Shown piece by piece: positions 1 through 28,507 of a stretch of DNA of 64,000 nucleotides; the first letter of the stretch is position 1; every line of letters begins with the position of its first letter. The translations under genes were made by a program, and so were the position numbers. Source of the DNA: Burkholderiales bacterium (GTDB lineage Bacteria; Pseudomonadota; Gammaproteobacteria; Burkholderiales; SG8-41); NCBI GenBank assembly GCA_030684405.1, contig JAUXYA010000011.1, forward strand, positions 186,001-250,000, written 5' to 3'. Under the pieces are notes generated by a model. That model ran no database searches. It had not been told where the DNA came from and saw only the letters and a list, made by a program, of their open reading frames with translations.

Positions 1-1000
1 CTTTCGTTTTCAGCGGTCCGACACACTCGAGGCCGTCAATCACGTTGTCCGAGGTGGCCGCCAGCATGATTTCCGCCATGGTGTTGACGCCGAGGCCGAA
101 ACCGTGGCCGACCACGCAGCGGATGCCCGCAGCTTCCGCCGTGGCAATCATGCGCCGGGTGTTGAGGAAACCGCCCTGCTTCATGACCTTGACCTTGACG
201 ATATCCGCGGCATCGGCGCGGATGATGTTGATCAGGCTGGCATGGTCGGTCACCGACTCGTCGGCCATAATCGGCACACCGACCGCATTGGCGGCCTTGC
301 GCACCCGCGCCATGCCGGCGATGTCGTCGGCCGGCACCGGTTGTTCGAACAGTTGCAGGCCATAGGGCGCAACCATTTCCGCGAGCTTGATGGAAGTGTC
401 GGCGTCGTAACCGGCATTGGCATCGATACGGATATTGAACTCCGGACCGCAGGCCTCGCGCACCGCCTTGACACGGTCGCGGTCGGCCACGATGTCGCCG
501 CCGACCTTGATCTTGCAGGAACGGAAACCCTTTTTCTGCCAGTCCAGCGTCTCCTTCGCCGCGTCCTCCGGCGACTGAATGCTGATCCAGGCGTTGAACA
601 GCAGCGTGTCCTTCATCGCACCGCCGAGCCAGGTATGCAGCGGAACGCCGGCCACCCGTGCCGCGAGGTCAGTGCAGGCCATGTCGATAGTGGCCTTGGC
701 GTCAAGGAAGTCGGGCACCACGGATTCCAGCTTGGCGGCAATACGGTGGAGATTGGTCGGGTCCATGCCCATCACCGCCGGCGCCAGCCGCGACCGGATC
801 ATCGCCAGACTGTCCTCGATGCTTTCCTTGGAATAACCCGGCGTCGGATCGATGTTGCCGTAGCCAATGGCGCCGCCGGTGGCGGTGATGCGCACGATTG
901 CGCTCTTCACCACCGATTTCGACAGGTAGGCGTTCTTGAATTCCATGACCAATGGCATGGCCACGCCAAAAACCTCAACACGATCAATCTTGAGGTTCAT
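1..1000 (-). CDS. Enolase-superfamily enzyme (mandelate racemase/muconate lactonizing type), 3' end cut by window edge
   Basis: About 333 residues are visible and the C-terminus lies outside the window. The N-terminus (MNLKIDRVEVFGVAMPL) and the barrel motifs KIK (in CKIKVGGD), RIDAN, LFEQP, ADES and the late GHGFGL mark the mandelate racemase/muconate lactonizing subgroup. These enzymes abstract a proton next to a carboxylate with Mg2+ held by acidic residues, usually as acid-sugar dehydratases, racemases or cycloisomerases. The ATG overlaps the TGA of the LeuD-like gene as ATGA, so the two are translationally coupled and this is the last visible gene of the minus-strand operon. It resembles the second enolase at 29564-30682. 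The substrate cannot be read from the sequence; an acid intermediate of the same pathway is inferred. Confidence 0.9.
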   Translation of the reverse strand, partial: MNLKIDRVEVFGVAMPLVMEFKNAYLSKSVVKSAIVRITATGGAIGYGNIDPTPGYSKESIEDSLAMIRSRLAPAVMGMDPTNLHRIAAKLESVVPDFLDAKATIDMACTDLAARVAGVPLHTWLGGAMKDTLLFNAWISIQSPEDAAKETLDWQKKGFRSCKIKVGGDIVADRDRVKAVREACGPEFNIRIDANAGYDADTSIKLAEMVAPYGLQLFEQPVPADDIAGMARVRKAANAVGVPIMADESVTDHASLINIIRADAADIVKVKVMKQGGFLNTRRMIATAEAAGIRCVVGHGFGLGVNTMAEIMLAATSDNVIDGLECVGPLKTK

Positions 1001-1509
1001 GCCTCAAGCTCTTTGAGATTCCAGTCCGGATGTTTCTGCAGAAAAGGGATCAGCCCCCCCGCCGTGAGCAGCGCCTGCACTACAGCAGGCAGCGGCGGCA
1101 CGGAGCGCGCGATGTTGCGCGAAGGCACGCTGACTCGACCGCCAGCGAGGTCCAGTTCGACAGCATCACCCGCGGTGATTCCACTGGTGTCGCACTCGAC
1201 CACCGGCATGCCGTTGTTGATCGCATTGCGGTAGAACTGGCGACCGAAGCTCGGCGCGATGATTCCCGCCACACCCAGCCGGTGCATGATGTGCACCGCC
1301 TGTTCGCGCGAGGAATTGATGCCGAAGTTCTTTCCGGCAACAATGATGTCTCCCTTGACGAAAGCCTTCGCGAAGCCCGGCGCGACCTGGTCAAAGGCCA
1401 CCGTCGCGATGTAAGCCGTGTCTTTGCCTGGCAGATACTTGCTGGAGCAGTGGATATCGGTGCTGACCTCGTCACCGAGTACCCGCGCACTGCCTTTGAT
1501 GATGTTCAT
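997..1509 (-). CDS. LeuD-like small (swivel) subunit of an aconitase-family hydro-lyase
   Basis: 170 residues, the usual length for the separate swivel domain of two-subunit 3-isopropylmalate dehydratase or homoaconitase-like enzymes. The stretch around residues 60-90 (GKNFGINSSREQAV, then GIIAPSFGRQFYRNAINNG) matches the family signature with the substrate-contacting SSRE. It should pair with the large subunit at 1662-2945 to isomerise or (de)hydrate a malate-type acid. The setting, with aldolase, BKACE and enolase genes and no leuA or leuB partner in the operon, argues for catabolism rather than leucine synthesis. 2,3-dimethylmalate dehydratase or a homoaconitase-like activity are alternatives. 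Its stop overlaps the next start by four bases. A 152 bp gap with an inverted repeat separates it from its partner. Confidence 0.9.
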   Translation of the reverse strand: MNIIKGSARVLGDEVSTDIHCSSKYLPGKDTAYIATVAFDQVAPGFAKAFVKGDIIVAGKNFGINSSREQAVHIMHRLGVAGIIAPSFGRQFYRNAINNGMPVVECDTSGITAGDAVELDLAGGRVSVPSRNIARSVPPLPAVVQALLTAGGLIPFLQKHPDWNLKELEA

Positions 1510-1550
1510 GATTTTTGGGTCCTAAAACTGCAAGATCAAATTCAAATGCA

Positions 1551-1648
1551 GCCACAGAGGACACAGAGTTCACAGAGAAAACCATGGCTTATCCGATACT
1601 CATGGTTTCGGGTTTGTAATTCTCTGTGTTCTCTGTGCCCTCTGTGGC
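1551..1648. repeat. Imperfect inverted repeat between the LeuC- and LeuD-like genes
   Basis: Two 29-base arms at 1551-1579 and 1620-1648 are reverse complements with three mismatches. They are built from reiterated CACAGAG / CTCTGTG words and enclose 40 bases. The element could fold in the operon mRNA between the two subunit genes. The style (ccacagaggacacagag) is that of short dispersed intergenic repeats often met in environmental proteobacteria; only this copy is present here. Confidence 0.7.
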
Positions 1649-1661
1649 CAGGTTTTTAAGT

Positions 1662-2945
1662 TCAAGCCGCCGCACGCCAGTCGCCGCCTGCAACAGTGCG
1701 CGCATCGGTGATCACGCCGGTCAATGCCGAGGCGGCCACAGTGGCCGCCGAACCGATCCAGATTTCCGACCTTGGGTTGCCCAACCGGCCCTTGAAATTG
1801 CGGTTGGCACTGGAAATCACAACCTGCCCGTCGCCGGAAATGTAATGCCCGGTGATGTTGACGCAGGTGCCACAGCCCGCCGCCTCCACCGAGGCGCCGG
1901 CTTCGGTAAGGATTTCGAACAGACCTTCACGCATCGCGTCGAGGTAAATCGCGCGTGACGCCGGAGTGACAATCATGCGCACGCCTTTCGCCAGCTTCCG
2001 TCCCTTGAGGATCGCTGCGGCCTGGCGGATATCATCAAGCCGGCCGTTGGTGCAGGTGCCGATCAACGCAACCTGGATTTTCTGGCCAGCCACGTCCGGC
2101 ACCGCGGCAATGTCGTCGATGCGGTGCTGGCGTGCCACCTGCGGCGCGAGCTTCGCGGTGTCAATGACGATGCGCTGCGTGTAGTCCGCATCGGCATCGG
2201 CCTTCACCGGTTTCGGCGCAGCCGCGCCGTGGGCCTTGAGCCAGGCCAGCGTTTTTTCATCGGCCTCCAGCAACGCTGCCTTCGCGCCAAGTTCTGCAGC
2301 GTGATTCGACAGCGTCATGCGGTCGTCGATGGCCATTGCCGCCACGCCGCTGCCGGCATATTCGAGGGCCCGATAGTTGGCGCCCTCGGCCCCCAGCCTG
2401 CCGAGCATGCTCAGCGTGACATCCTTGGCCCAGACGCCCGGCTGCAATGCCCCCTGCAGTTCAATGTGGATGGTCTCCGGCACGCGGAACCACAGCTTGC
2501 CGGTCATCATCACGGCCGACACGTCCGTGCCTTCGACACCGGTGCCAAAGGCGTTGAAGGCGCCATAGGTCGTCGAATGGGTATCGGTGCCCACCACGAG
2601 ATCGCCGCAGGTCAGATGTCCACCTTCGGGCAGCACCTGGTGGCAAATGCCGTCGCCAACGTCGTAGATCGGCGAACCGTGTTTGTCGGCAAAGGCACGC
2701 ATCTCGACATGGGTATTGGCCGCCTCCATGTTCGGCGGCGGCGAATAATGGTCCAGCACCAGGGCGGTGCGTTTGACGTGAGGCAGGGATTTAGCACCCA
2801 GCTTTTCGATCATCTTCAGCGCGTTGCCGGCACGGGCGTCGTGGATCATTGCAAAATCGACGTCCGCGATGACAATTTCACCGGCCCTGACCGCCTTGCC
2901 GCCCGCGTGTTGGCCGAGAATCTTCTCGGCGATGGTATGCCCCAT
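1662..2945 (-). CDS. LeuC-like large subunit of an aconitase-family hydro-lyase
   Basis: 427 residues from the ATG at 2945, chosen because AGGAGGACAGCCC stands directly upstream and MGHTIAEKIL is the usual family start. The three [4Fe-4S] ligands are present: Cys298 (IGTCTNG), Cys358 and Cys361 (GCGTC). Other family signatures are DLVVGTDTHSTTYGA (about 116-129) and GTGVEGTDVSAVM. With the LeuD-like subunit it should catalyse dehydration and rehydration of a hydroxy-dicarboxylate or tricarboxylate in the cytoplasm. Its neighbours are degradative, so true isopropylmalate isomerase is unlikely; dimethylmalate or homoaconitate-type substrates are possible. Confidence 0.92.
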   Translation of the reverse strand: MGHTIAEKILGQHAGGKAVRAGEIVIADVDFAMIHDARAGNALKMIEKLGAKSLPHVKRTALVLDHYSPPPNMEAANTHVEMRAFADKHGSPIYDVGDGICHQVLPEGGHLTCGDLVVGTDTHSTTYGAFNAFGTGVEGTDVSAVMMTGKLWFRVPETIHIELQGALQPGVWAKDVTLSMLGRLGAEGANYRALEYAGSGVAAMAIDDRMTLSNHAAELGAKAALLEADEKTLAWLKAHGAAAPKPVKADADADYTQRIVIDTAKLAPQVARQHRIDDIAAVPDVAGQKIQVALIGTCTNGRLDDIRQAAAILKGRKLAKGVRMIVTPASRAIYLDAMREGLFEILTEAGASVEAAGCGTCVNITGHYISGDGQVVISSANRNFKGRLGNPRSEIWIGSAATVAASALTGVITDARTVAGGDWRAAA

Positions 2946-3113
2946 GGGCTGTCCTCCTGTGGGATTCCGCCGCAAGACGAATCGCAGCGACGAAGACGTG
3001 GATTTTAACCCAGCCCCGGACAGCACACGCCCTGATGTTCACCATATGAGCGGCGTCCAAGCCTCTCCGGAGACGTCTTTCACCGAAGACATCCGTATGC
3101 TGCACAGGAAAAA

Positions 3114-3998
3114 CTAATTGCGGGAAATCCCCAGCATCGCCCGCGCCTCATCCGTGGTCGCCGGCTCCCGGCCGACCGCCCGCCCCAGTTCGGCAAAGCG
3201 CCGCACCAGTTCGGCATTGCTCGGGCAACCGATTTCCGGATAAGGATAATCGCCGATACCCGGCGCGAGGTGCCCCATCCGTTCGAGCGCCGTGGTGGCG
3301 ACATTGAACAGATTGCCTTCCTTGCAGGCCACCGTCCATTCGATGCGGCGCTGCGGTGGCAGGAAGTCGATCAGCGCCTCCAGTCCGCGCGTGCTGCAGG
3401 GATGCGCGCCGACGATGCCACCTTCCGCCAGCACGCACTGCACATAGGCCGGCTCGCGTACCGCACCCATGTCGAGGAAAGCCTCGACCATGCGCACAAA
3501 CGGCACCGCCCACACCGACAGATGCGGTTTGACGCCGGCCTCGGTCATACCCCTGGCCAGGAACAGGCAGGTTTCGGTGCTGTTCTTGTAGATCTTGTTG
3601 GTGGTCAGGAATTTTTTCTGCAGCGGATCGTAAGCGTCGATGTTGCTGCTGCCGGTGTCCACCGCCGCAAAATCCGGGCGGGTGCTGCTCTTCTGCCCCA
3701 TCAGCTTGATGTGGGCCAGCCGGTTCTCATCCTCGTTGACGGTGATCTGGCCCAGCGTCGAATCGATCAGAATGTCGCATTTCTCGCGGATTTTCGCGAC
3801 GATCTCGGCATAAACCTCAGGCTCATGACATTTGCCGCCATCCGGCGTACGGGCGTGGAAATGAATGATCGAGGCGCCCGCCGCGCGGCACTCCGCCGCA
3901 GTCTCGGCGATCTCGTCCGGCGTGAAGGGCACGTTGCAATTGGTATCGCGCGACATGTATTCATTGACGCGCACAGTGATGATGAGTTTTTTATGCAT
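3114..3998 (-). CDS. BKACE-family beta-keto acid cleavage enzyme (DUF849)
   Basis: 294 residues, the usual size. His46 and His48 in IIHFHAR are the two zinc-binding histidines of the family. The TIM-barrel features EPEVYAEIVAKIRE and IDSTLGQ follow. BKACE enzymes condense a beta-keto acid with acetyl-CoA and release acetoacetate plus a new acyl-CoA; the founding member is 3-keto-5-aminohexanoate cleavage enzyme. The ribosome site AAGGGG precedes the ATG. It lies between the aldolase and hydro-lyase genes on the same strand, so a beta-keto acid is a probable intermediate of this pathway. The specific keto acid is not predictable from what I can see. Confidence 0.92.
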   Translation of the reverse strand: MHKKLIITVRVNEYMSRDTNCNVPFTPDEIAETAAECRAAGASIIHFHARTPDGGKCHEPEVYAEIVAKIREKCDILIDSTLGQITVNEDENRLAHIKLMGQKSSTRPDFAAVDTGSSNIDAYDPLQKKFLTTNKIYKNSTETCLFLARGMTEAGVKPHLSVWAVPFVRMVEAFLDMGAVREPAYVQCVLAEGGIVGAHPCSTRGLEALIDFLPPQRRIEWTVACKEGNLFNVATTALERMGHLAPGIGDYPYPEIGCPSNAELVRRFAELGRAVGREPATTDEARAMLGISRN

Positions 3999-4014
3999 AA
4001 ACCCCTTATTTACC

Positions 4015-4082
4015 GCCGATGAACGCTGATAGACGCCGATACCTCCAAACCATGATGCTGCACTCTATCGGCGTTCATCGGC
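4015..4082. repeat. Inverted repeat between BKACE and aldolase genes
   Basis: Arms GCCGATGAACGCTGAT (4015-4030) and ATCGGCGTTCATCGGC (4067-4082) are reverse complements with one mismatch. They fill the 85 bp gap between the two genes. The word cgccgatgaacgc recurs in many proteobacterial intergenic palindromes, so this is probably a dispersed repeat that may also fold in the operon transcript. Confidence 0.65.
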
Positions 4083-4084
4083 TG

Positions 4085-4867
4085 TCAGCTCTGTTTTCGT
4101 TCGGTTTTAACGGCATTCATGCGCCGGCAGACATCGAGGAACAGATGCCCGTCGGTGCCGAGCACGATGGCCTGCACGCCGCGGTCGCGCACCGATCTGC
4201 CGTAGACCTGGTCAGGTTTGTTGCCGATGGTGGTCATCACGAACTTGCCATGCTTGCGCGCGGCACTCACCACCTGCTCCAGCGCCGCAGCCATCTTCGG
4301 TTCATCAAAGGTGGCATGCGGCACACCCAGCGCAATCGACAGGTCGGTGGGGCCGATGAAAAACACCTCCAGCCCCGGCACCGCGGCCAGCGCATCAAAA
4401 TCCCGCAGCGTCGCCGCATCCTCGATCAGCGGAATCACCATCAGCTCGTCGTTGCTGCTCCGTACGTGCGTATCCCAGTCGCCCGGCGCATAGCCGGCCG
4501 AGCGCACGATGGTGCAGGCCCCACGCTCGCCAGCCGGGGCGTAACGCGCATGACTCAGGGCTTGCATGCAGTTTTCCTTCGTAGCATGCGATATCGCGAT
4601 GCCGGCAGCACCCATGTTCAAAAGCTTGAGTATCAGCGTGCGCTCGACATCGGCGATGCGCACGAAGGGCGTGATGCCGGCGGCATCGGCCGCGCGAATG
4701 ACATGGGCGCAGGTGTCGAAATCAAGCGCACTGTGCTCCATGTCGATGATCACGAAATCGATGCCAGCGGCGGCAGCCAGTTCCGTGATCATCGGACTGC
4801 CGCTGAACAGGATGATTCCGGTAACGGTTTCACCGCGGGCAAGCGCAGCACGGACTGGATTTTTCAT
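4085..4867 (-). CDS. HpcH/HpaI-family aldolase
   Basis: 260 residues from the ATG at 4867 (MKNPVRAALARGE), which gives the typical family length; a longer frame to 4930 adds an unlikely leader. Family marks are VIIDMEHS (residues 39-46), IPLIEDA and FFIGPTDLSIALG, which supply the divalent-metal acid residues and the phosphate/carboxylate loop of class II pyruvate aldolases. Such enzymes split 4-hydroxy-2-oxo acids into pyruvate or a related oxo acid plus an aldehyde. It is the first gene of the minus-strand operon and faces the ThDP decarboxylase operon across a 189 bp control region. Citrate lyase-beta-like activity is a less likely alternative. Confidence 0.9.
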   Translation of the reverse strand: MKNPVRAALARGETVTGIILFSGSPMITELAAAAGIDFVIIDMEHSALDFDTCAHVIRAADAAGITPFVRIADVERTLILKLLNMGAAGIAISHATKENCMQALSHARYAPAGERGACTIVRSAGYAPGDWDTHVRSSNDELMVIPLIEDAATLRDFDALAAVPGLEVFFIGPTDLSIALGVPHATFDEPKMAAALEQVVSAARKHGKFVMTTIGNKPDQVYGRSVRDRGVQAIVLGTDGHLFLDVCRRMNAVKTERKQS

Positions 4868-4956
4868 GAGGAAGAATGAATTCGTTGCGGACAGTCCTGC
4901 GAGAGTAACCCCCGACCTGGCTCGCGGCAAGGCTGCCCGACTTCGCTGGCGACCAG

Positions 4957-4990
4957 AATCCGGAACTCAGGGCAACCCTGCTCCGGAATT
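4957..4990. promoter_or_regulatory. Dyad-symmetric candidate operator in the divergent control region
   Basis: Nested arms AATCCGGA / TCCGGAATT and CAGGG / CCCTG centre on CAA at 4973. The dyad directly abuts a -10-like TATGAT (4990-4995) serving the plus-strand operon and would cover its -35 region. It is the only strong symmetry I see between the two divergent catabolic operons. No regulator gene is adjacent, so the binding protein is unknown. Confidence 0.5.
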
Positions 4991-5056
4991 ATGATAGAAC
5001 TGGGCGCCTGCAAACTGGCTGCGGTATTGCCGCTGCCGCAAAAGGGAAGAACGCAG

Positions 5057-5575
5057 ATGAGCGATAACCACGAAGCCCACCTGGGCCCGGAAACGGTGCT
5101 TGGCGAAATGAAAAAGAACGGCGTCAGCCACGTGGTCTGGCTCCCGGACAGCGAGACCAACTGGCTCTACACGCTGATGAAGGCGGAACCCGGGCTGACC
5201 CTGATCGCCGTAGCGCGCGAAGGCCTCGCCTTTTCGACCGCTGCAGGACTGCACACCGGCGGCAAGGTACCGATCATCCTGATCCAGAACACCGGCATGA
5301 TGGAAGCCGGCGACTCGCTGCGCGGCTGGGGACTCGGACTCAACATCCCCGTCGTTATGCTGGTGGGTTATCGCGGATGGACGCGTCACGGCGTGACCAA
5401 GGACACTGCGGCGGTCTATACCGAGCGTTTTCTCAATGCTTTCGGCATCAATTATTACCTCGTTGAAAATGACAAAGACGCCCCGCGCATATCGGCAGCC
5501 TTCGAGGAGGCGCGCAAGAACCAGCGCCCGGTCGCGGTCCTGGTCGGGGACGAGTACCACGGATTCAACAGCTGA
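5057..5575 (+). CDS. ThDP-dependent decarboxylase, alpha (PYR-domain) subunit, sulfopyruvate/phosphonopyruvate decarboxylase-like
   Basis: 172 residues from the ATG at 5057, preceded by GGGAAG; the frame stays open upstream but MSDNHEAHLG is the natural start. The protein is a lone ThDP-enzyme N-terminal domain: SHVVWLPDSETNWLY, then VAREGLAFSTAAGLHTGG with the Glu expected to activate the cofactor, then ILIQNTGMMEAGDSL. Split enzymes of this kind (ComD/ComE) decarboxylate sulfopyruvate; relatives act on phosphonopyruvate or other 2-oxo acids. The beta subunit starts 20 bases downstream. It opens the plus-strand operon that runs to 9821. The sulfonate specificity is not supported by neighbours, so the 2-oxo acid remains open. 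Confidence 0.87.
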   Translation: MSDNHEAHLGPETVLGEMKKNGVSHVVWLPDSETNWLYTLMKAEPGLTLIAVAREGLAFSTAAGLHTGGKVPIILIQNTGMMEAGDSLRGWGLGLNIPVVMLVGYRGWTRHGVTKDTAAVYTERFLNAFGINYYLVENDKDAPRISAAFEEARKNQRPVAVLVGDEYHGFNS

Positions 5576-5595
5576 ACACCACGGGGGAACCAAAC

Positions 5596-6183
5596 ATGAT
5601 CGTCCTGAAGGAAATGTTCAGTGTGTTCGAACAACACCGCGGCAATGCCATCGTGATTCCCGGCCGCGGCAATCGCCAGTGGCACGAAATCAGCACACAG
5701 CCCCGCCGCGACCTGCCGCTGGGCGATCCGGCGATGGGCGGTCATGCCGGATTTGCGCTCGGACTGGCACTGGCCCTGCCTCGCGAAAAAATCGTGCTTT
5801 TTGACTCGGAAGGCGACTTGCAGATGAGCATGGGCGTATTGGCGATGGTGTCCGAGCACAAACCGAAAAATTTCTACCATTTCCTGCTCGACAACGAGTG
5901 TTACGCCACCACAGGTGGCCAACCGGTGCCCAACGCCGCGAACGTCGCCTACGACCAGATTGCACGTGCGGCGGGATATCCGTCCGTGCACGCGTACACG
6001 AACCTTGAAAGCCTGACAATCGACATCGGCCGCATCCTCGCCGTTCCCGGCCCGGTATTCGTTGCGATGAAAATCGTTCCTGAAATCGAGAACCGTCCGA
6101 TGGGACAACGCCCGCCGCGACTGTTGCGCAGCCGGGAGCAAGTGCTCGCCGATTTCAAAGGCGAACTCGGCCTCACCGGTTGA
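5596..6183 (+). CDS. ThDP-dependent decarboxylase, beta (PP-domain) subunit
   Basis: 195 residues. LGDPAMGGHAGFALGLALA is followed by the ThDP-Mg signature: SEGDLQMSMG with Gly73-Asp74, and Asn100 26 residues later in LLDNECY, matching the GD...N spacing of the cofactor-binding motif. With the alpha subunit it should form the full active site at the interface and decarboxylate a 2-oxo acid to an aldehyde. It ends well before the MmgE/PrpD gene and shares its strand and probably its mRNA. Confidence 0.87.
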   Translation: MIVLKEMFSVFEQHRGNAIVIPGRGNRQWHEISTQPRRDLPLGDPAMGGHAGFALGLALALPREKIVLFDSEGDLQMSMGVLAMVSEHKPKNFYHFLLDNECYATTGGQPVPNAANVAYDQIARAAGYPSVHAYTNLESLTIDIGRILAVPGPVFVAMKIVPEIENRPMGQRPPRLLRSREQVLADFKGELGLTG

Positions 6184-6283
6184 GCTTGTTTTAACGTCCA
6201 GGCCCGCGCCCCCGACGCGTGGCCAAGCCTGCGGGAATGTGTTAATCAAGCGACTCTTCGCCATTCACCCGCACAGGTTTTCC

Positions 6284-7720
6284 ATGCCCCGAGAAATAGC
6301 ACTGACCGCCGAGGTCGCCCGCTTCATCACCCGCACCCGTCCCGCGCAGATTCCGCGCGCGGTGATGCACCACGGCAAACGCTCCCTGCTTGACGGCCTC
6401 GGTCTCGCGCTGGCCGGAAACGCCGCCGAGTCCGGCCATGTCGTACGCCGGTACCTGAAGACGCTGGGCCTGCGACTGGATCGCGGCGCGACCGTAATCG
6501 GCACCCCGCTTAAAGTGCCGCCACGATTCGCGGCCTTCGCCAACGGCATCGCGATTCACGCCGACGATTACGACGACACACAACTCGCCGTGGCCAAAGA
6601 CCGTGTCTACGGCCTGCTCACCCACCCCACGGCACCGGCACTGCCCGCCGTGCTGGCGCTGGCTGAATACGACAACCGCTCTGGCCTTGATCTGCTGACG
6701 GCATACCAGATCGCCGTCGAAGTCGAAACCAAACTCGCCGAAGCGATCAACCCGCGGCATTACGCTGACGGTTTTCATTCGACGGCAACCTTCGGCGCCA
6801 TCGGCGCCGCTGCCGGCGCTGCACGTCTGCTCGGGCTCGACGCCGCGCAGACCGCACAGGCACTGAGCCTCGGCGCCAGCCAGGCTGCGGGCCTGCGCGA
6901 GAATTTCGGCACCATGACCAAGCCTTTCCATCCCGGTCGTTCTGCGGAATCGGGGGTGATGGCAGCGGAACTGATCCGCCTTGGCTGGAGCGCTGCACCG
7001 GACGCGCTCGAAGCAAAGCGCGGCTTCTTCAACGCCGCCGGCGGCGGTTACGACCCGCAGGCCATCCTTGGAAAACTCGGCAAACCGTGGACCTTTGCAA
7101 TGCCCGGCGTCTCAATCAAACCCCATCCCAGTGGCTCGCTGACCCATCCCGGCATGGGCGTCATGCTCGAGCTCGTGCTGCGGCACGACATCAAGCCAAC
7201 ACAGGTGCAGAAAATCCGCGTCGGCACCAACCGCCACATGCCCAACACGCTGATCCACCACCGTCCAAAGACAGAACTGCAGGCCAAGTTCAGCATGGAG
7301 TTTTGCATGGCGATACTGCTGCTCGAACGCAGGGCCGGCCTGGAACAATTTACCGATGCCGTGGTCCGTCGCGCTGACGTGCAGCGCATGATGCGCCTGG
7401 TCGAATTCAGCGTTCATCCCGAGGCCGAAGCCGCCGGTTACGAAAAGATGACTACCATCATCAACATCGAAATGAAGGACGGCCGCGTGATCAGCGGCCG
7501 CGCCGATTTCGGCAAAGGCAGTCCTGCCAATCCGATGAGCGACGATGAAGTCGCCGGCAAGTTCCGCGAATGCGCGGCATGGGGCGGACTTCCGGTAACG
7601 CAGGCCGACCAGGTCATTGGACGGGTATTCAATCTGGAGAAACTCAAGTCGGCGCGCGAATTGACGCGGCTACTGGTGCCGGCTCCGCGGCGCAAAGTGT
7701 CGGCCAGAGCAAAAAAATAG
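6284..7720 (+). CDS. MmgE/PrpD family protein
   Basis: 478 residues from the ATG at 6284 (MPREIALTAEV); an earlier in-frame start at 6239 exists but adds an atypical leader. Family features are LDGLGLALAG near the N-terminus, HADDYDDTQ (a PrpD-type active-site segment), THPTAPALPAVLALAE, and HPGRSAESGVMAAELIRLG. Members include 2-methylcitrate dehydratase, cis-aconitate decarboxylase and iminodisuccinate epimerase, all acting on tri- or dicarboxylates. Its place between ThDP decarboxylase and PdxA-like genes, with a TTT receptor downstream, suggests dehydration or isomerisation of an imported polycarboxylate. Exact reaction unknown. Confidence 0.9.
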   Translation: MPREIALTAEVARFITRTRPAQIPRAVMHHGKRSLLDGLGLALAGNAAESGHVVRRYLKTLGLRLDRGATVIGTPLKVPPRFAAFANGIAIHADDYDDTQLAVAKDRVYGLLTHPTAPALPAVLALAEYDNRSGLDLLTAYQIAVEVETKLAEAINPRHYADGFHSTATFGAIGAAAGAARLLGLDAAQTAQALSLGASQAAGLRENFGTMTKPFHPGRSAESGVMAAELIRLGWSAAPDALEAKRGFFNAAGGGYDPQAILGKLGKPWTFAMPGVSIKPHPSGSLTHPGMGVMLELVLRHDIKPTQVQKIRVGTNRHMPNTLIHHRPKTELQAKFSMEFCMAILLLERRAGLEQFTDAVVRRADVQRMMRLVEFSVHPEAEAAGYEKMTTIINIEMKDGRVISGRADFGKGSPANPMSDDEVAGKFRECAAWGGLPVTQADQVIGRVFNLEKLKSARELTRLLVPAPRRKVSARAKK

Positions 7721-7764
7721 ACTAAACTGGGTCTTCTTCATCCAAAGCACCCACTGGACCATTT

Positions 7765-8796
7765 ATGAGCAAGCTACCCCGAATCGGATTCATGCTGGGC
7801 GACATCACCGGCATCGGTCCTGAAATCGCCGCAAAACTTCTGGCATCAGGCAAACCCGCGCAACTCGCAGAGGTTGTCATCATCGGCGACCGGCGCGTGC
7901 TTGAACTCGGCATGCGCGATGCCGGCGTCAAGGTCCCGCATACCGTCTACCGCAGCATCGACGAAATAAGCTGGCCACGGCAGGACATTCCGCTGCTCGA
8001 CCTCGGCAACATGGATCCCGCGCGTTTCAAGCGCGGCGAGCCGGTCGATGAAGTCGGCAAACTGTGCGGCGACACCTTCAAGGTCATGATCGACCTGGCG
8101 CTGGCCGGCAAACTCGACGGCATCTGTTTTGCCCCGCTGAACAAGGGCGCGATGAACCGCGGCGGCTGGAAGTTCAACGACGAACACCAGATGTTTGCCC
8201 ACCTCACCTCGCACAGCGGCTTCTTCGGCGAGATGAACGTGATTGACCAGTTCAGCACCTTTCGCGTGACCTCACACGTCGCCTTGCGTGAGGCCGTGAA
8301 CATGATCACCCCGGAACGCATCACCTCGGCGGTGAATCTCGCCAACGACACGCTGCGCGCAGCAGGCAAATCAAACAACCCGCGCATCGGCGTGGCCGCG
8401 CTCAATCCGCACAATGGTGAAAACGGCCTCTTCGGTGACGAGGAAATCCGCATCATTCGCCCTACCGTTGACAAGCTGAAGGCCGGTGGTATCAACTGCG
8501 AGGGCCCCATTTCCTCGGACGTGATTTTCCTGCAAGCGCTGAAGGGAAAATTCGACGGCGTGGTGATGATGTACCACGACCAGGGCCAGATCGCGACCAA
8601 ACTGCTGGGCTTCAACAAGGGCGTCACCGTCACCGCCGGGCTGAAAACCGTGTTTACGACACCCGCCCATGGCACTGCTTACGACATCGTCAGCCAGGGC
8701 AAAGCTGACCCCGGCGCAATGGAGCACGCCTTTACTCTCGCCGCCCGGCTCGCCGCTGGTCGCAAGGCGGCTGCCGCCACAAGCACCGCGGCATAA
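7765..8796 (+). CDS. PdxA-family 4-phospho-hydroxyacid dehydrogenase (PdxA2-like)
   Basis: 343 residues. LGDITGIGPEI near the N-terminus, LNKGAMNRGGWKFNDEHQMFA in the middle, and MMYHDQGQIATKL with TTPAHGTAYDI near the end are standard for 4-hydroxythreonine-4-phosphate dehydrogenase, including the metal-binding histidines. It lacks pyridoxine-pathway neighbours. PdxA2-type paralogues oxidise four-carbon phospho-acids such as D-threonate- or D-erythronate-4-phosphate in catabolic operons, usually with a kinase, which is not present here. Its substrate in this operon is therefore uncertain. Confidence 0.9.
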   Translation: MSKLPRIGFMLGDITGIGPEIAAKLLASGKPAQLAEVVIIGDRRVLELGMRDAGVKVPHTVYRSIDEISWPRQDIPLLDLGNMDPARFKRGEPVDEVGKLCGDTFKVMIDLALAGKLDGICFAPLNKGAMNRGGWKFNDEHQMFAHLTSHSGFFGEMNVIDQFSTFRVTSHVALREAVNMITPERITSAVNLANDTLRAAGKSNNPRIGVAALNPHNGENGLFGDEEIRIIRPTVDKLKAGGINCEGPISSDVIFLQALKGKFDGVVMMYHDQGQIATKLLGFNKGVTVTAGLKTVFTTPAHGTAYDIVSQGKADPGAMEHAFTLAARLAAGRKAAAATSTAA

Positions 8797-8846
8797 CCTG
8801 CAACAGAGCAGTTTCCAAACCATCCATAAAGACGGAGGAGAAGAAA

Positions 8847-9821
8847 ATGAACCGACAACTGATCAAGAGCCTGATGGCGGGTGCCGTAATGGGGGCGTTC
8901 GCCACGCAGGGCCTTGCTGCCGAGTGGCAGCCAACCAAGCCCATCCGCATGCTCGTCGGTTTCGCTCCCGGTGGCGGCACCGACACCACGGCACGCGCCA
9001 TGGGCGCCAAGCTGAGCGAGCGTCTCGGCCAGCAGGTCATCATCGACAACCGTCCCGGTGCCGCAGGCAACATCGCCACCGACCTGACCTCGCAGGCGAC
9101 CCCCGACGGGCACACCATCCTGATGGGTACGATTGCCGCGCTGGCCATCAATCCCGCGCTCTACAAGAAACTTCCCTTCGATCCGCTGAAGGACGTGATA
9201 CCGATCACGCGCGCCGTGGACTCGACCAACGCGCTGGTTGTGCATCCCTCGGTGCCCGCCAAAAACGTCATGGAACTGGTCGCATTGGCAAAAACCAATC
9301 CGCTTAACGGCGGCTCCTCGGGCGTCGGCGGCGCCGGGCACCTCGCGCTGGAATTGTTCAACCTGCAGGCCGGCACCAAGATCGTCCATATCGCTTATAA
9401 AGGCGGCGGACCGGCGATGGTCGATCTGCTCGGCGGTCAGATCAACTTGATCTTCGCAACTGCGGCGAGCGCCGTCGGCCACATCAAGGCCGGCAAGATC
9501 CGCGCGCTGGCGGTGTCCACGGCCAAACGTTCAGGTCTGCTGCCTGAACTGCCGACCGTTTCGGAAGCCGGCCTGAAAGGTTTCGAGGCGAACAACTGGT
9601 ACGGCCTGCTCGCTCCTGCGAAAACTCCGCGCAACGTGATCGACCGCCTGAACAAGGAGTCGATTGCCGTGCTGAATATGCCGGACGTCAAGGACCTGCT
9701 GTTCAAGCAGGGCCTGGATGTTTCGACCAGCACGCCGGAAGCCTTCGGCGCTTACATCAAGTCTGAAAAGGCACAGTGGGAAAAAGTGATCAAGGCCGCC
9801 GGCCTGTATCACACAAACTGA
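8847..9821 (+). CDS. Bug-family TTT substrate-binding protein 1
   Basis: 324 residues with a Sec signal peptide (charged start, hydrophobic core, cleavage after GLAA). Family marks are PTKPIRMLVGFAPGGGTD, VIIDNRPGAAGNI, TPDGHTI, HIAYKGGGPAM and the late EANNWYGLLAPAKTP. Bug proteins bind carboxylates in the periplasm for a TctAB-type carrier or for signalling. The gene closes the ThDP decarboxylase/PrpD/PdxA operon, has a strong GGAGGAG ribosome site, and is followed by a terminator. It is therefore the likely receptor for the substrate of that operon. Confidence 0.94.
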   Translation: MNRQLIKSLMAGAVMGAFATQGLAAEWQPTKPIRMLVGFAPGGGTDTTARAMGAKLSERLGQQVIIDNRPGAAGNIATDLTSQATPDGHTILMGTIAALAINPALYKKLPFDPLKDVIPITRAVDSTNALVVHPSVPAKNVMELVALAKTNPLNGGSSGVGGAGHLALELFNLQAGTKIVHIAYKGGGPAMVDLLGGQINLIFATAASAVGHIKAGKIRALAVSTAKRSGLLPELPTVSEAGLKGFEANNWYGLLAPAKTPRNVIDRLNKESIAVLNMPDVKDLLFKQGLDVSTSTPEAFGAYIKSEKAQWEKVIKAAGLYHTN

Positions 9822-9848: not shown

Positions 9849-9887
9849 AAAAGACCGCGGAGCGCTCGCTTCGCAGTCTTTTTTTTT
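9849..9887 (+). terminator. Rho-independent terminator after Bug 1
   Basis: Stem arms AAGACCGCGGAG (9851-9862) and CTTCGCAGTCTT (9869-9880) pair with one mismatch and one G-T pair. A run of nine T follows (9879-9887). It ends the operon that begins at 5057. Confidence 0.85.
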
Positions 9888-9931: not shown

Positions 9932-10900
9932 ATGAAATTCCCGCACCGTGTCATCGCCTTGCTGGCCACCGGACTGCTCGCAGCACCGGCACTGGCTGCC
10001 GAATGGGGACCGACCAAGCCCGTTCGCTTCATCGTCGGTTTCCCGCCCGGTGGCGCCACTGATCTCGTCGCGCGCATCCTCCAACCCAAACTCGCCGCCA
10101 GTCTCGGTAATCAGGTTATCGTCGACAACCGTCCCGGCGCCAACGGCGTGATTTCGATGCAGATTCTGTCGCGCGCGGAACCCGATGGCCACAGCGTCGG
10201 CATGTCGCACATTGGTTCCTTGGTGGTCAGCCCCGCGATCCAGAAAACCGGCTACGACCCGATGAAGGATTTCGTGCATCTCGGCATGCTGGTCACTCTG
10301 CAGAACATCCTGATCACCCACCCTTCGGTACCGGCAAAAAATATCGGCGAATTCATCGCCTATGCCAAGAGCCAGCCGGGCAAGGTCAATTACGCCACCT
10401 CGGGCATCGGCAGTCCCGGACATCTCGCCGTCGCGCTGCTCGAAGGCATGGCCGGCATCACGCTAAACCATGTGCCTTACAAGGGCGGCGGACCGGCCAT
10501 TACCGACCTGATCGCCGGTCACGTGCCGGCATTCATGGCCGTCATCTCGACCGCAGTGCCGCATGTGCAATCCGGCAAAGCACGTGCGCTGGGCGTCACC
10601 GGAGCCAAGCGCGCCGAAGCACTGCCCGGCGTTCCGACCATCGCCGAGGCTGGCGTCAAGGGCTACCAGGCGATTAACTGGTACGGCCTGTCCGCGCCTC
10701 CGAAAACTCCGTCGGCCATCTCCGCCCGGTTAAATCGGGACTTTGCCGCCGCACTCGCTGCGCCGGATGTCATCAAGCAGCTGAAAGACCGCGGCATCGA
10801 CGCGTCACCATCCAGCGGCAGCGACTACCAGAAATTCATCCGCAGCGAACAGGATCGCTGGATACCCGTGATCAAACACGCAAAAATCGAAGCGAGCTGA
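9932..10900 (+). CDS. Bug-family TTT substrate-binding protein 2
   Basis: 322 residues from the ATG at 9932, which has AGGAG upstream; the longer frame from 9776 would run through the terminator of the previous operon. The signal peptide ends at PALAA. The core shows GPTKPVRFIVGFPPGGATD, NRPGANGVIS, EPDGHSV and HVPYKGGGPAITDL. It is the closest relative in the window of Bug 3 (12142-13131): both share GGATDLVARILQP and the late DASPSS segment, suggesting local duplication. It stands alone between terminators, so it may be expressed independently. The ligand is unknown, probably a di- or tricarboxylate or aromatic acid. Confidence 0.93.
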   Translation: MKFPHRVIALLATGLLAAPALAAEWGPTKPVRFIVGFPPGGATDLVARILQPKLAASLGNQVIVDNRPGANGVISMQILSRAEPDGHSVGMSHIGSLVVSPAIQKTGYDPMKDFVHLGMLVTLQNILITHPSVPAKNIGEFIAYAKSQPGKVNYATSGIGSPGHLAVALLEGMAGITLNHVPYKGGGPAITDLIAGHVPAFMAVISTAVPHVQSGKARALGVTGAKRAEALPGVPTIAEAGVKGYQAINWYGLSAPPKTPSAISARLNRDFAAALAAPDVIKQLKDRGIDASPSSGSDYQKFIRSEQDRWIPVIKHAKIEAS

Positions 10901-11138: not shown

Positions 11139-12095
11139 ATGGATCTCCGGCAGCTGGAATGTTTCGTCCGCGTGGCGGAACTCGGCAGCTTCACCAAAGC
11201 CTCTGCAATGCTCGGCATCTCGCAATCGATATTGAGTCGTCAGGTCCGCCGGCTCGAACTGGATGTCAAGAAACACCTGTTGCATCGTAACGGCCGCGGT
11301 GTGACAACGACCGATCATGGCAGGCGCCTGCTCGCCCATGGTCGGGGTATCCTGCATCAACTGGATCTCGCGCGACAGGAACTGCAGGACACGGCGCACG
11401 CCCCCGTCGGCAAGGTCGTGATCGGCATGCCGCCGACTGCAGGCAAGATCGTCGCCGTGCGTGCCGTCACCGAATTCCGGGCGCGATATCCTCAGGCATC
11501 AATCGGCATCACCGAGGGCCTGACTACGACCATGCAGGAGTGGCTGCTGCTCGGCCGCCTTGACTGTGCGCTGCTCTACAATCCCCAGCCGGCCGCTGAA
11601 CTCGAATACCAGGATGCGGGCGCGGAAAAGCTGTACCTGATCAGCCGGTCCACCGCCGCCCGCAAGCCAGCAGACACCGTGCGCATGGCCGACGTCGCAG
11701 GCTTGCCGCTGATCATCCCCAGCCGGCCCAATGCCCTGCGCAGCTTCATAGAATCCGAATTCGATCGAAGGCGGTTGCCGCTCAACGCCGCACTGGAAAT
11801 CGACTCGATTCCGGCAGTCATTGATCTCGTCGCCAGGGGTTTTGGCCATGCCATCCTGTCTCGGCACGCCATCCGGGACCATGCGATGCGCAGAAAGCTG
11901 CATGCGGCGCGCATCGTCTCCCCCGAAGTCATCAGCCGGTGGGTGATCGCGACCGCTAAGCAAAGGCCACTGACCCGCCTCGCCCAACACGCGATCGACC
12001 TGCTGAAAACGGTCATCACACAAGAACTCTTCGCGGACGCAGTAGCGCCCGCGAAGATACGACCGGACGCAAGATACGGCACCACGACGACCTGA
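11139..12095 (+). CDS. LysR-family transcriptional regulator
   Basis: 318 residues with the N-terminal winged helix-turn-helix typical of LysR proteins (MDLRQLECFVRVAELGSFT, then AMLGISQSILSRQVRRLE) and the periplasmic-binding-like effector domain (GKVVIGMPPTAGKIV onward). It is transcribed in the same direction as, and 46 bases before, the Bug 3/LigJ/decarboxylase-like operon, so it probably regulates that operon and itself in response to an aromatic or carboxylic acid. There is no clear Shine-Dalgarno; the leader is AT-rich and includes a possible copy of the AT-rich element. Confidence 0.93.
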   Translation: MDLRQLECFVRVAELGSFTKASAMLGISQSILSRQVRRLELDVKKHLLHRNGRGVTTTDHGRRLLAHGRGILHQLDLARQELQDTAHAPVGKVVIGMPPTAGKIVAVRAVTEFRARYPQASIGITEGLTTTMQEWLLLGRLDCALLYNPQPAAELEYQDAGAEKLYLISRSTAARKPADTVRMADVAGLPLIIPSRPNALRSFIESEFDRRRLPLNAALEIDSIPAVIDLVARGFGHAILSRHAIRDHAMRRKLHAARIVSPEVISRWVIATAKQRPLTRLAQHAIDLLKTVITQELFADAVAPAKIRPDARYGTTTT

Positions 12096-17709: not shown

Positions 17710-18852
17710 TTATTCCGGCGCCACACCCGGCACCGGGCGCCGTCGCTCGAGGTGATGACGCACCAGCGCCATCAGGCGATACATGCCGTGCACGAACTTG
17801 CCATAGGGCATGGTCAGGAACAGTGCCAGCACGAAGCCGAGGTGCACTGCGAGCCAGGTGCCCATCGCACCGGTTTCGCGCCAGATCATCAGGCCAAGGC
17901 CGGTCAGGCTGACCATGAACAGCAACACCAGCAAGCCGGCATCCATGCCGTCCTGCGCACGGTAGGCGAGTTCCGGATCGCGCTTGGCCTTGATCCACAG
18001 CAGCCCCGCCGGACCGATCAGCAAGCCGATGCCGCCGACAGTGCCGAGAATCACCGGCAGGCTCAGGTAGGGATAGGGTGCCGGGTAATCAAGCGCGTAG
18101 TGGTAAACCGTCGCCACGCTGGTCGCCGCGAAACACAGCATGAATCCGTAGAACGTGAAATGGTGGAATATCCGGCGCGCGAAGGACTTCTGCTCGGTGG
18201 GATAGGTGCAGCCTTCCCCACCACCGCCGAGATTCTTCAGCGTGAAGGCATCGTGCAGCCCCTCGGCCAGCGGCTTCTTGAAGAAATCCGCCAGATCCTC
18301 GCCCATGTACGGCCAGAAGCGGAAGAAACCCACCAGCAGCGCAATCAGCACGAAAATCGATACCCCGCCGAACATGGCGACCATCAGGTCGTGCGGCATC
18401 AGCGCGTAGAAGGAGCCCTGTGCATCGCTGTGCGCCGCAAAAAAACGCTCCGGGTTCGACAACGCGCCGGCGATCCAGAACAGCAGCGCGATGCTGAACG
18501 CCGAAATCAGGCTCACCGCGACGCCGTTATTATCATAGAGCCTGCCGAGGAAACCGGGCCAGGCATAACGACGGTAGGTCTCGCCGCGCACTCGCGCCAT
18601 CAGCCGCGGTACGTTGACCTGAAATTCATGCGGCGGCGAGAACTGGCAGGCGTAGAGGCAGGAACCGCAGTTGTGGCAGAGGTTGCCGAGATAATGGATG
18701 TCGTTCTCGGTGAACTCGAGACGGCGCGCCATCGCCGGGAACATCGCGCAATAGCCTTCGCAGTAGCGGCAGGCGTTGCAGACGCGCAGTACGCGCTGCG
18801 CATCCTCGATCAGCGCGTCCAGAGGCATCGGTTTTTCATCAGCCGCGTACAT
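17710..18852 (-). CDS. tcuB: TcuB-type iron-sulfur membrane protein (tricarballylate utilization)
   Basis: 380 residues from the ATG at 18852, overlapping the tcuA stop by 14 bases. Two ferredoxin-like clusters are visible: Cys25, 28, 31, 35 (CNACRYCEGYC) and Cys59, 62, 65, 69 (CHNCGSCLYAC). Several membrane helices follow, with histidines suited to heme binding. In Salmonella, TcuB passes electrons from TcuA to the quinone pool, reoxidising its FAD. The operon order decarboxylase-like, tcuA, tcuB and the divergent Bug gene suggest oxidation of a tricarballylate-like acid here. The TAA stop lies inside an AT-rich element and a terminator follows. Confidence 0.9.
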   Translation of the reverse strand: MYAADEKPMPLDALIEDAQRVLRVCNACRYCEGYCAMFPAMARRLEFTENDIHYLGNLCHNCGSCLYACQFSPPHEFQVNVPRLMARVRGETYRRYAWPGFLGRLYDNNGVAVSLISAFSIALLFWIAGALSNPERFFAAHSDAQGSFYALMPHDLMVAMFGGVSIFVLIALLVGFFRFWPYMGEDLADFFKKPLAEGLHDAFTLKNLGGGGEGCTYPTEQKSFARRIFHHFTFYGFMLCFAATSVATVYHYALDYPAPYPYLSLPVILGTVGGIGLLIGPAGLLWIKAKRDPELAYRAQDGMDAGLLVLLFMVSLTGLGLMIWRETGAMGTWLAVHLGFVLALFLTMPYGKFVHGMYRLMALVRHHLERRRPVPGVAPE

Positions 18853-20236
18853 GTTTTGCCGCCTCCTCGCCTGCGATGCGTCCGAACGTGGTGCCGATGG
18901 ACATGCCGATGCCCGCCAGGTATCCCTTGCCCAATACGTTTCCCGCCATGATCTCTCCCGCCGCAAATATGTTTTTGCAGGGTTTGTCGTCCTGCAGGAT
19001 CATCCGCGATTTGTCGTCTACAGTGACCCCCAGATAGGTAAAGGTGATGCCGGGCCGCAGCGGATAGCCGAAGTACGGCGCCGTGTCGATCTTCTGCGCC
19101 CAGTGCGTCTTCGACGGTGTGATGCCTTCGGTGACGCAATCGTCCTGGATCGTGTGGTCGAAGGTGCCGGTACGCACAGCGGCGTTGAATTCACGCACGG
19201 TTTTCTCCAGCGCATCCGGATCCAGTTCCAGCTTGGCCGCCAGCTCGCGCAGGGAACTGGCGCGGATCGGCGGATACACCGGCGGCATGAACTTGCCCAT
19301 GACCTTGGAATCGACGATCGAGTAGCCAATCTGGTCAGGCTGCCCCGCCACCAGCCGGCCCCAGATCGCGTAACGCTTGGGCCAGAAGTCCTCGCCTTCG
19401 TCGTAGAAACGCTCGGCGTTCTTGTTGACGACGATGCCCAGCGACACCGCATCAACGCGGGTGATGATGCCGCCGTCGTACTTCGGCGAACGCGCGTCGA
19501 TCGCCACGCAATGGCCCTGCAGCGGATCGCTGATCTGCTTCGCGCCCTTGGCCAGCAGCAGCTTCAGGATATCGCCGCGGTTGTAGGGGGTGCCGCGCAC
19601 GAGGAAGTTTTTTGCGGCCGGACCCCATGCCTCTTCCAGCCATTCAAGGTTGGCCTGGAAGCCGCCGCAGGCAATCACGACGGCCTTGGCACGCACCTGG
19701 TGCGTGGCGCCGCCAAGGGTGAAAGTCGCCGACCTGAAGCTGTCACCCTCGATCTCAAGGTCCGTGACCTGCGCTTCGTAATGAATGTCGATGCCGAGCT
19801 GTTCCGCCGAGTAGTAGTAGGCATTCATCAGCGCCTTGCCGCCGCCGAGGAAAAAGGCGTTGGTGCGCGACAGGTGCAGCGTGCCACCCAGCGGCGGCTG
19901 GAAACGCACGCCGTGCTTCATCATCCACGGCCGGCAGGACGAGGTGTGATGCAGCACGATGCGCGCCAGCTTCTCGTTGGTCAAACCACCGGTGACCTTC
20001 AGCAGATCCTGCCAGTATTCCTCTTCGGAATAGGCGCCGGTGAGGATGTCCTGCGGCTCTTCGTGCATGCAGCGCAGGTTGCGGGTGTGGCGGCTGTTGC
20101 CGCCGCGGAACGGTTTCGGCGCGCCTTCGAGCAGGATGACGCTGCATCCGGCTTCGCGCGCCATCAGCGCCGCGCACAGCGCCGCATTGCCGCCGCCGAC
20201 AACGAGCAGATCCCAGGTTTTGGAGGTATCCAGCAT
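18839..20236 (-). CDS. tcuA: TcuA-type FAD-dependent tricarballylate dehydrogenase
   Basis: 465 residues. The N-terminal dinucleotide fold is WDLLVVGGGNAALCAALMAREAG, and the C-terminal FAD segment is NIFAAGEIMAGNVLGKGYLAGIGMSIGTTFGRIAG, as in fumarate-reductase/succinate-dehydrogenase flavoproteins. TcuA oxidises tricarballylate to cis-aconitate, which then enters the TCA cycle through aconitase. It is coupled to tcuB by a 14-base overlap and lies 84 bases after the decarboxylase-like gene. Other family members reduce fumarate or oxidise steroids, but the TcuB partner supports this call. The acid may differ from tricarballylate. Confidence 0.88.
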   Translation of the reverse strand: MLDTSKTWDLLVVGGGNAALCAALMAREAGCSVILLEGAPKPFRGGNSRHTRNLRCMHEEPQDILTGAYSEEEYWQDLLKVTGGLTNEKLARIVLHHTSSCRPWMMKHGVRFQPPLGGTLHLSRTNAFFLGGGKALMNAYYYSAEQLGIDIHYEAQVTDLEIEGDSFRSATFTLGGATHQVRAKAVVIACGGFQANLEWLEEAWGPAAKNFLVRGTPYNRGDILKLLLAKGAKQISDPLQGHCVAIDARSPKYDGGIITRVDAVSLGIVVNKNAERFYDEGEDFWPKRYAIWGRLVAGQPDQIGYSIVDSKVMGKFMPPVYPPIRASSLRELAAKLELDPDALEKTVREFNAAVRTGTFDHTIQDDCVTEGITPSKTHWAQKIDTAPYFGYPLRPGITFTYLGVTVDDKSRMILQDDKPCKNIFAAGEIMAGNVLGKGYLAGIGMSIGTTFGRIAGEEAAKHVRG

Positions 20237-28316: not shown

Positions 28317-28507
28317 GGCATTGCTCCTCTGTGATGAACCGCCGATGCTACCGCACTGACTTCATCTATACGTTTTCCCTGCCGCGATATGGACGACGCG
28401 ATGTCGGCTCGCGGAGCCCCGCGTGATAACATCAGCATGCGTTCTGCGACTGCGCCGGGCGCCTTGGTGCCGGTAATTGCCCTGCCGCAGCACCCTCTAA
28501 AATTATC

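Follow-up and report, generated by a model that had tools for sequence, protein, structure and literature searches.

The window, a stretch of 64,000 nucleotides of a Burkholderiales bacterium (GenBank assembly GCA_030684405.1, contig JAUXYA010000011.1; C36:186001-250000 in our designation), begins with two divergent runs of genes for enzymes of carboxylic acid metabolism. We propose, and hold it about as probable as its opposite, that the gene cluster formed by these runs serves the catabolism of an imported acid whose backbone is a 1,4-dicarboxylate, that is, a substituted succinate, malate or maleate. The proposal is built on gene content, retained residues, conservation of the cluster and co-occurrence of its genes; all reaction steps given below are hypothetical.

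Two facing runs of five genes each had been reported in a preliminary description of the window. All ten open reading frames are present with the families named there, have coding-type third-position G+C and match their families by Pfam. The runs diverge around a region of ~190 bases (4862..5056). The left run is longer than described: the enolase gene is cut by the window edge, and in the genome the minus-strand run extends ~5 kb past the window, with genes for a Bug receptor, a lyase, a dehydrogenase dependent on flavin mononucleotide (FMN), and an Iso_dh-type dehydrogenase. Loci, genomes and families of the comparisons are designated L, G and f; L004 coordinates refer to the locus of the window's own genome, including DNA to the left of the window. 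The cluster contains the following elements.

L004:11187-12242, minus strand: Iso_dh-type dehydrogenase, left of the window
L004:12279-13544, minus strand: FMN-dependent dehydrogenase, left of the window
L004:13608-14501, minus strand: lyase of the phosphoenolpyruvate (PEP)-mutase/isocitrate lyase (ICL) family, isocitrate/methylisocitrate type, left of the window (Pfam name PEP_mutase)
L004:14862-15827, minus strand: Bug receptor BugD, left of the window
2..1000, minus strand: enzyme of the enolase superfamily, MLE type, truncated at the window edge (complete gene L004:15870-17000; MR_MLE_C, 161 bits for the truncated and 192 bits for the complete gene)
997..1509, minus strand: LeuD-type small subunit with a CSSKYLPG loop (Aconitase_C, 50 bits; TIGR02087, 139.5 bits)
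1662..2948, minus strand: LeuC-type aconitase-family large subunit of a non-leucine clade (Pfam Aconitase, 300 bits)
3114..3998, minus strand: DUF849 protein with the fold of beta-keto acid cleavage enzymes (BKACE), similar to the cis-epoxysuccinate hydrolase (CESH) CESH[D] (BKACE family PF05853, 209 bits)
4085..4861, minus strand: HpcH/HpaI aldolase (PF03328, 84 bits)
4862..5056, no strand assigned: shared divergent region with a leftward promoter-like element (minus-strand TTGCCG-N17-TACTCT)
5057..5575, plus strand: alpha subunit of a thiamine diphosphate (ThDP) decarboxylase, sulfo/phosphonopyruvate decarboxylase-like (TPP_N, 30 bits)
5596..6183, plus strand: ThDP decarboxylase beta subunit (TPP_C, 46 bits)
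6284..7720, plus strand: MmgE/PrpD family enzyme (MmgE_PrpD_N, 206 bits; second Pfam match, 110 bits)
7765..8796, plus strand: PdxA-like dehydrogenase with an altered substrate site (Pfam PdxA, 282 bits)
8847..9821, plus strand: Bug/TctC periplasmic receptor BugA (Pfam TctC, 242 bits)

The gene set recurs in related bacteria. Neighbors of LeuC were counted in 25 loci, consisting of the window's own locus and 24 loci chosen for their long flanks; duplicates and short stretches, such as L145 and L146, were excluded. The counts use set identity thresholds, and some misses are edge effects (for example L060 and L070). LeuD is present in all 25 loci, the lyase in 24, PdxA in 21, MmgE and the enolase in 16 each, and the Iso_dh-type dehydrogenase in 15, while the receptors BugA and BugD accompany LeuC in 17 and 14 loci, respectively. 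The aldolase and the BKACE-like protein occur in only 11 loci each and the ThDP pair in four, and these three therefore look accessory, whereas LeuC, LeuD, MmgE and PdxA look like the core of the gene set. An FMN-dependent dehydrogenase and an FAcD-like hydrolase are found in ten loci each. The lyase, the carbon-carbon bond-cleaving enzyme of the core, lies outside the window and was hence invisible to the preliminary description.

A LeuC match of at least 73% identity is present in 48 of the 74 genomes of the window's family, fragments included, and the next matches do not exceed 46%. The 48 genomes include all 21 searched genomes of the window's genus, each of which carries an ortholog. Among 399 genomes drawn from the order, for each of which only the best 4-5 first-look candidates were scored, LeuC orthologs were found in 20 genomes, PdxA orthologs in 18, and both in 16; in 14 of these 16 the two genes lie on the same contig within 10 kb. 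LeuC and PdxA are found together far more often than expected (Fisher p 5e-23; genus-level hypergeometric p 3e-6, with four genera shared of six and five among 158; the p values are not fully corrected for kinship). The lyase occurs at 68% identity or more in 18 of the 399 genomes, 16 of which are among the 20 with LeuC, and in G312 and G090 a lyase copy of 47-49% identity adjoins LeuC. LeuC orthologs are distributed over four families of the order, and LeuC/PdxA pairs within 10 kb over families f1, f13 and f18. The recurrent arrangement and the co-occurrence bear out the initial suggestion of a single carboxylic-acid gene set around a joint control region. Conserved clusters in other genomes had been named as a test, and LeuCD, the lyase and PdxA do recur as one, while the ThDP pair, the aldolase and the BKACE-like protein appear in subsets of loci. 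The receptor gene at the end of the plus-strand run had also been taken as a sign of one pathway. Its adjacency is weak by itself in a genome with 146 matches to Bug receptors, but the conservation of the same receptors across loci speaks for the connection.

The region shared by the two runs contains a leftward element composed of a TTG-type hexamer, 17 bases, and TA(A/C/G)TCT. The strict pattern is present in nine of 12 sequences from the window's genus, compared with 0.18% of simple shuffles. The pattern was defined after the sequences had been viewed, and it is the conservation that carries the claim; a general promoter scan flagged nothing in the shared region. The conserved element supports joint control of both runs within the window's genus. 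We infer that the minus-strand run is one operon, and word this cautiously because of a ~360-base gap between BugD and the lyase; the gaps beside LeuC measure ~150-165 bases.

The LeuC protein scores 210.5 bits against the leuC equivalog cut-off of 560, exceeds three subfamily-level cut-offs (for example NF001614, 496 versus 385 bits), and contains the cysteine motifs GTCTNG and CGTC. Four other genes of the genome pass the leuC cut-off, the best of them at C2:65467 with 767 bits. A role in leucine synthesis was rejected because of the score of LeuC and these other LeuC genes. LeuD is above the cut-off of the LeuD/DmdB subfamily TIGR02087 (139.5 versus 109 bits). The loop CS[SAT]KY[LM]PG is present in 29 distinct LeuD variants among the fetched loci, and three solved relatives have other loops. 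LeuC relatives of 42-47% identity from five loci provided no lead: those in L094, L100 and L102 are next to apparent leucine/valine synthesis genes, as judged by eye, and those in L095 and L097 adjoin unrelated genes.

The lyase contains the motif EDQVAPKRCGH, in which we take KxCGH to be the catalytic cysteine motif of the ICL/PrpB/dimethylmalate lyase superfamily. Its best matches in the PDB are petal death protein, 2,3-dimethylmalate lyase and methylisocitrate lyase. The motif of PEP mutases, EDKxxxxNS, is not in the lyase sequence. Phosphonate antibiotic clusters carry a PEP mutase, a split phosphonopyruvate decarboxylase, an aconitase and an isocitrate-type dehydrogenase, a set that the present cluster resembles by the Pfam name of the lyase and by a 90-bit NCBIfam match to phosphonopyruvate decarboxylase. 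A function in phosphonate metabolism is nevertheless largely refuted, and we give it next to no credence, given the KRCGH motif in place of EDKxxxxNS, the presence of the ThDP pair in only four of 25 loci, and the scores of its subunits far under the equivalog cut-offs (alpha, TIGR03845, 79 versus 148 bits; beta, TIGR03297, 90 versus 312 bits, and TIGR03846, 78 versus 221 bits).

The PdxA-like enzyme belongs to the fold family of PdxA and of the D-threonate-4-phosphate dehydrogenase PdxA2, and retains the three metal-site histidines and the lysine. It differs from both in the residues GHT, N and R, which we take to be the substrate contacts of PdxA (E. coli numbering). DEH, T and F (or Y) replace these residues in all 24 aligned members of the clade, including the window's protein, which has F, and three from Alphaproteobacteria. 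Only part of this signature is present in relatives of 44-46% identity (L121 and L122). Relatives of 45-47% identity in Ruegeria and Variovorax have a different context, next to an L-rhamnonate-dehydratase gene and a DHDPS-family gene. A second, canonical-looking PdxA with GHT, N and R is encoded elsewhere in the genome; pyridoxine synthesis was rejected as the function of the window's enzyme because of this second PdxA and the altered substrate site. The partner of PdxA2 in acid-sugar phosphate routes is a DUF1537 kinase. The genome, which is 99% complete, contains no match to the kinase family PF07005, for which the control was positive in three of 14 genomes, and an acid-sugar-phosphate route was rejected on this ground.

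The nearest PDB relatives of the MmgE/PrpD enzyme are iminodisuccinate (IDS) epimerase 2hp0 and cis-aconitate decarboxylases. The enzyme is far below the PrpD equivalog cut-offs (43 versus 950 and 22 versus 575 bits). According to an excerpt of PMC12290011, residues of MmgE/PrpD proteins bind the four-carbon 1,4-dicarboxylate common to the known substrates of the family. As far as that excerpt defines them, the dicarboxylate-binding residues H92, D95, H114, H165, K213 and K279 are kept in the window's MmgE, as judged by eye from motifs and the alignment with IDS-epimerase. Position 95 is an aspartate as in IDS-epimerase, whereas methylsuccinate isomerase has a glutamate.

We hypothesize that a Bug receptor captures the acid, which the MmgE/PrpD enzyme may epimerize or dehydrate, in keeping with the chemistry of its family. 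LeuCD would add or move water to give a 3-substituted malate. Judged by its family and KRCGH motif, the lyase encoded left of the window could cleave this malate to yield a 2-oxo acid plus a carboxylate. Oxidative decarboxylation of this intermediate or of a sister compound may fall to the PdxA-like and Iso_dh-like enzymes, with an unphosphorylated substrate. The CESH-like protein, MLE enolase, HpaI aldolase, FMN-dependent dehydrogenase and ThDP decarboxylase would be add-ons, which probably channel related acids into the route or convert its products. Judged by their families, most core enzymes use substrates with a substituted succinate, malate or maleate skeleton. A methylcitrate-like route is the most economical scheme.

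The methylcitrate cycle, with the enzymes PrpD, AcnD/AcnB and PrpB, follows the same logic of an MmgE/PrpD enzyme, an aconitase-family hydratase, and a PrpB/ICL-family lyase with a cysteine motif. The window's cluster differs in that the hydratase is a two-subunit LeuCD-type enzyme, PdxA-like and Iso_dh-like enzymes are added, and the PrpD and PrpB equivalog cut-offs are missed. The 2,3-dimethylmalate pathway of nicotinate fermentation employs the DmdAB hydratase and dimethylmalate lyase, and shares with the window's cluster a LeuCD-family hydratase, reflected in the score of LeuD above the LeuD/DmdB cut-off, and an ICL/PEP-mutase-family lyase. The Burkholderiales context, the MmgE and PdxA partners, and the Bug receptors set the window's cluster apart. 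The itaconate/methylsuccinate cluster of Pseudomonas and Cupriavidus, as presented in excerpts of PMC12290011 and PMC9875883, likewise has an MmgE/PrpD isomerase acting on a free dicarboxylate with a C4 backbone. No such set was recognized at the window's locus, where no dedicated search for it was made and where a CaiB-like gene was noticed by eye at L004:8831-10126.

Several observations weigh against a single catabolic pathway of this kind. LeuC occurs without PdxA in four genomes (G066, G127, G214 and G283) and PdxA without LeuC in two (G049 and G420), some of these genomes being fragmented. Locus L137 of family f6 contains LeuC and LeuD with neither the lyase nor PdxA nearby. In the five f13 loci (L138, L139, L140, L143 and L144), MmgE is without exception absent or under the threshold, and is therefore not strictly required. 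The lyase does not reach the methylisocitrate-lyase equivalog cut-off (248 versus 354 bits), the promoter-like element is found in none of five sequences from outside the window's genus, and two MmgE genes of a Pacificitalea plasmid compared with the window's MmgE gave 30% identity and no match. A scheme in which a lyase and two dehydrogenases share one intermediate is untidy, and two pathways may be present instead.

Two or more adjacent pathways, with LeuCD and the lyase degrading one acid and MmgE, PdxA and the receptor serving another, are an unlikely explanation in our estimate, though one far from negligible. It would accommodate the genomes with LeuC or PdxA alone, and the 146 Bug receptor matches of the genome make catabolic neighbors likely. 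It also agrees with the gene content of three alphaproteobacterial plasmids. Those of Phyllobacterium and Neorhizobium (L119 and L120) carry together relatives of MmgE (62-63% identity), Iso_dh (53-55%), the FAcD-like hydrolase (54-57%) and PdxA (54%), and the same stretches contain genes annotated as tartrate dehydrogenases and tripartite transporters; this joint occurrence counts in favor of our main proposal. On the Pacificitalea plasmid (L118), a PdxA of 59% identity is located beside a tartrate dehydrogenase gene and four MmgE/PrpD genes. In the three plasmid stretches (21 kb shown, gene table incomplete), the annotation includes neither LeuCD nor the lyase. Plasmids searched with LeuC (E up to 1e-80) yielded seven records of 39-41% identity. 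The separation into two pathways is opposed by the proximity of LeuC and PdxA in 14 of the 16 genomes of the order that carry both, spanning three families, and by the one short intergenic region common to both halves in the window's genus.

The protein encoded at 3114..3998 shares 50.3% identity over 290 residues with the cis-epoxysuccinate hydrolase 5zmu (315 bits), and the best PDB entry other than CESH scores just 74 bits. The PF05853 domain and the HxH metal motif are present, and the two conserved histidines, both of which are aligned, are inferred metal ligands. Aligned with 3e02, an entry of the BKACE fold, the window's protein has GIGD at the position of GLED, whose glutamate we take to be the third Kce-type zinc ligand. 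The label BKACE, used in the preliminary description, is thus right as a Pfam family, but the nearest solved relative is not a BKACE. Canonical BKACE identity was rejected because of this relationship and the replaced glutamate, and the protein is probably not a canonical BKACE.

An excerpt of PMC6429283 names the CESH[D] residues R11, E14, D115, E190 and D251 and indicates that CESH[D] keeps only two of the three Kce ligands. R11, E14, both histidines, D115 and D251 are all identical in the window's protein. The catalytic E190 is replaced by a valine in this protein, in all 17 ortholog sequences aligned (L053 and L081 being one contig), and in both paralogs of the genome. Judged by sequence, the protein belongs to a CESH-like clade, and its activity is assignable to neither CESH nor BKACE, because it is 50% identical to CESH yet lacks E190. 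Another DUF849 member performs chemistry other than that of BKACE, according to an excerpt of a 2026 preprint (PMC12871164). The two paralogs, at L005 11797-12681 and 13773-14753 (74% and 53% identity), adjoin a Bug gene, and third-position GC is low in this stretch.

Cis-epoxysuccinate hydrolase is used to make tartaric acid, as stated in an excerpt of PMC6429283. In a tartrate or epoxysuccinate pathway, the CESH-like protein would open an epoxysuccinate-type ring to give tartrate, which the PdxA-like and Iso_dh-like enzymes would oxidize and decarboxylate. We consider such a pathway improbable. The similarity to CESH[D] and the retained residues speak for it, as do the annotated tartrate dehydrogenases in L119 and L120 and, in L118, a gene beside PdxA that exceeds the TIGR02089 tartrate dehydrogenase cut-off (571 versus 470 bits) while staying under that of NF006048 (481 versus 501 bits). 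They are set against the valine at position 190 throughout the clade, the 14 of 25 loci in which the CESH-like gene was not seen, and the scores of the two Iso_dh genes of the window's genome, both under the tartrate dehydrogenase cut-off (227 and 185 versus 470 bits).

In agreement with the earlier suggestion that the gene combination matches no assigned pathway, our searches of open-access papers turned up no assigned counterpart cluster. We tentatively suggest, as a possibility short of probable, that the cluster encodes a new pathway for an unrecognized substituted C4-dicarboxylate, such as an alkyl-, epoxy- or halo-malate or tartrate, which occurs in several Burkholderiales families and in a related form on rhizobial plasmids. 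Part of this suggestion is that three enzyme subfamilies are new: the LeuCD clade with the CSSKYLPG loop, the phosphate-free PdxA clade, and the CESH-related DUF849 protein lacking E190. The three carry the labels 3-isopropylmalate dehydratase, 4-hydroxythreonine-4-phosphate dehydrogenase and beta-keto acid cleavage enzyme, all of which point to other functions. If the suggestion is true, annotation lacks an acid that environmental bacteria use, and relatives of an industrial cis-epoxysuccinate hydrolase gain a pathway context in which their natural role becomes testable.

The accessory enzymes were central to the preliminary description, which envisaged beta-keto acid cleavage and ThDP-dependent decarboxylation in the breakdown of a branched or polyhydroxy acid. 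Pfam confirms the families, and the ThDP beta subunit has the ThDP-binding GD...DN motif and matches PDB entry 9iz3 with 55.8 bits. The proposed order of chemistry was not upheld: the keto-acid cleavage step depends on the protein nearest to CESH, which is devoid of the glutamate of the BKACE-fold entry, the ThDP pair is found in four of 25 loci, and the aldolase and BKACE-like protein are found in 11 each. We regard this chain of reactions as very unlikely. The nearest PDB relative of the aldolase is 2-dehydro-3-deoxyglucarate aldolase 4tv5. The enolase has relatives in the PDB and contains KIK and KVK motifs, presumably a mark of the MLE subgroup. The 146 TctC/Bug receptor matches in the genome of 3.74 Mb compare with 11 matches to the TctA permease, and most receptors are therefore probably without a membrane partner gene of their own.

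The likely starts of two genes differ from those of the longest open reading frames, with the aldolase starting at 4861 and the ThDP alpha subunit at the ATG at 5057. Three further elements follow BugA.

9857..9874, plus strand: terminator-like hairpin with a T run, 3' of BugA (hairpin scan)
9944..10900, plus strand: second Bug receptor BugB, probably a unit of its own (Pfam TctC, 240 bits)
11139..12095, plus strand: LysR-type regulator, a candidate only (Pfam HTH_1 and LysR_substrate)

The hairpin agrees with the end of the plus-strand run at 9821 given previously; terminator-like sites as a class are not above shuffle expectation (12 found, mean 10.9). The LysR-type regulator is present only in the window's own locus among the 25; apart from this count, an edge piece was seen in L059 (94% identity) and a copy in L061 (65%).

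The f13 loci L139, L140 and L145 have a molybdenum enzyme similar to xanthine dehydrogenase and glyceraldehyde dehydrogenase between LeuD (or LeuC) and the lyase, as recognized by eye with a family test on L140 only. Loci L141 and L142, from genomes of 2.2 and 1.8 Mb, contain the cluster in a compact form, extended by genes for a TauD-type dioxygenase and a protein with rhodanese repeats, and L141 additionally has an HMG-CoA-lyase-type gene (family tests on L141). The record titles of L073, L078, L086, L092 and L106, Bordetella parapertussis or Chitinophaga pinensis, look wrong; their LeuC groups with that of metagenome-assembled genomes of Burkholderiales.

A second, related set of genes is located at 27432-34462 of the window and encodes an FAcD-like hydrolase, an SGL lactonase-like protein, an MLE enolase 48% identical to the first enolase, a TauD-type dioxygenase, and an Iso_dh. 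The FAcD-like hydrolase (27432-28316) contains DRGAR and HWF motifs, and its relatives are near the core cluster in ten of the 25 loci. The gene at 18839-20236 encodes the FAD-dependent tricarballylate dehydrogenase TcuA (725 bits, cut-off 369). The segment 44001-52000 has a G+C content of 52-54%, compared with 60-64% over most of the window, and is possibly acquired DNA.

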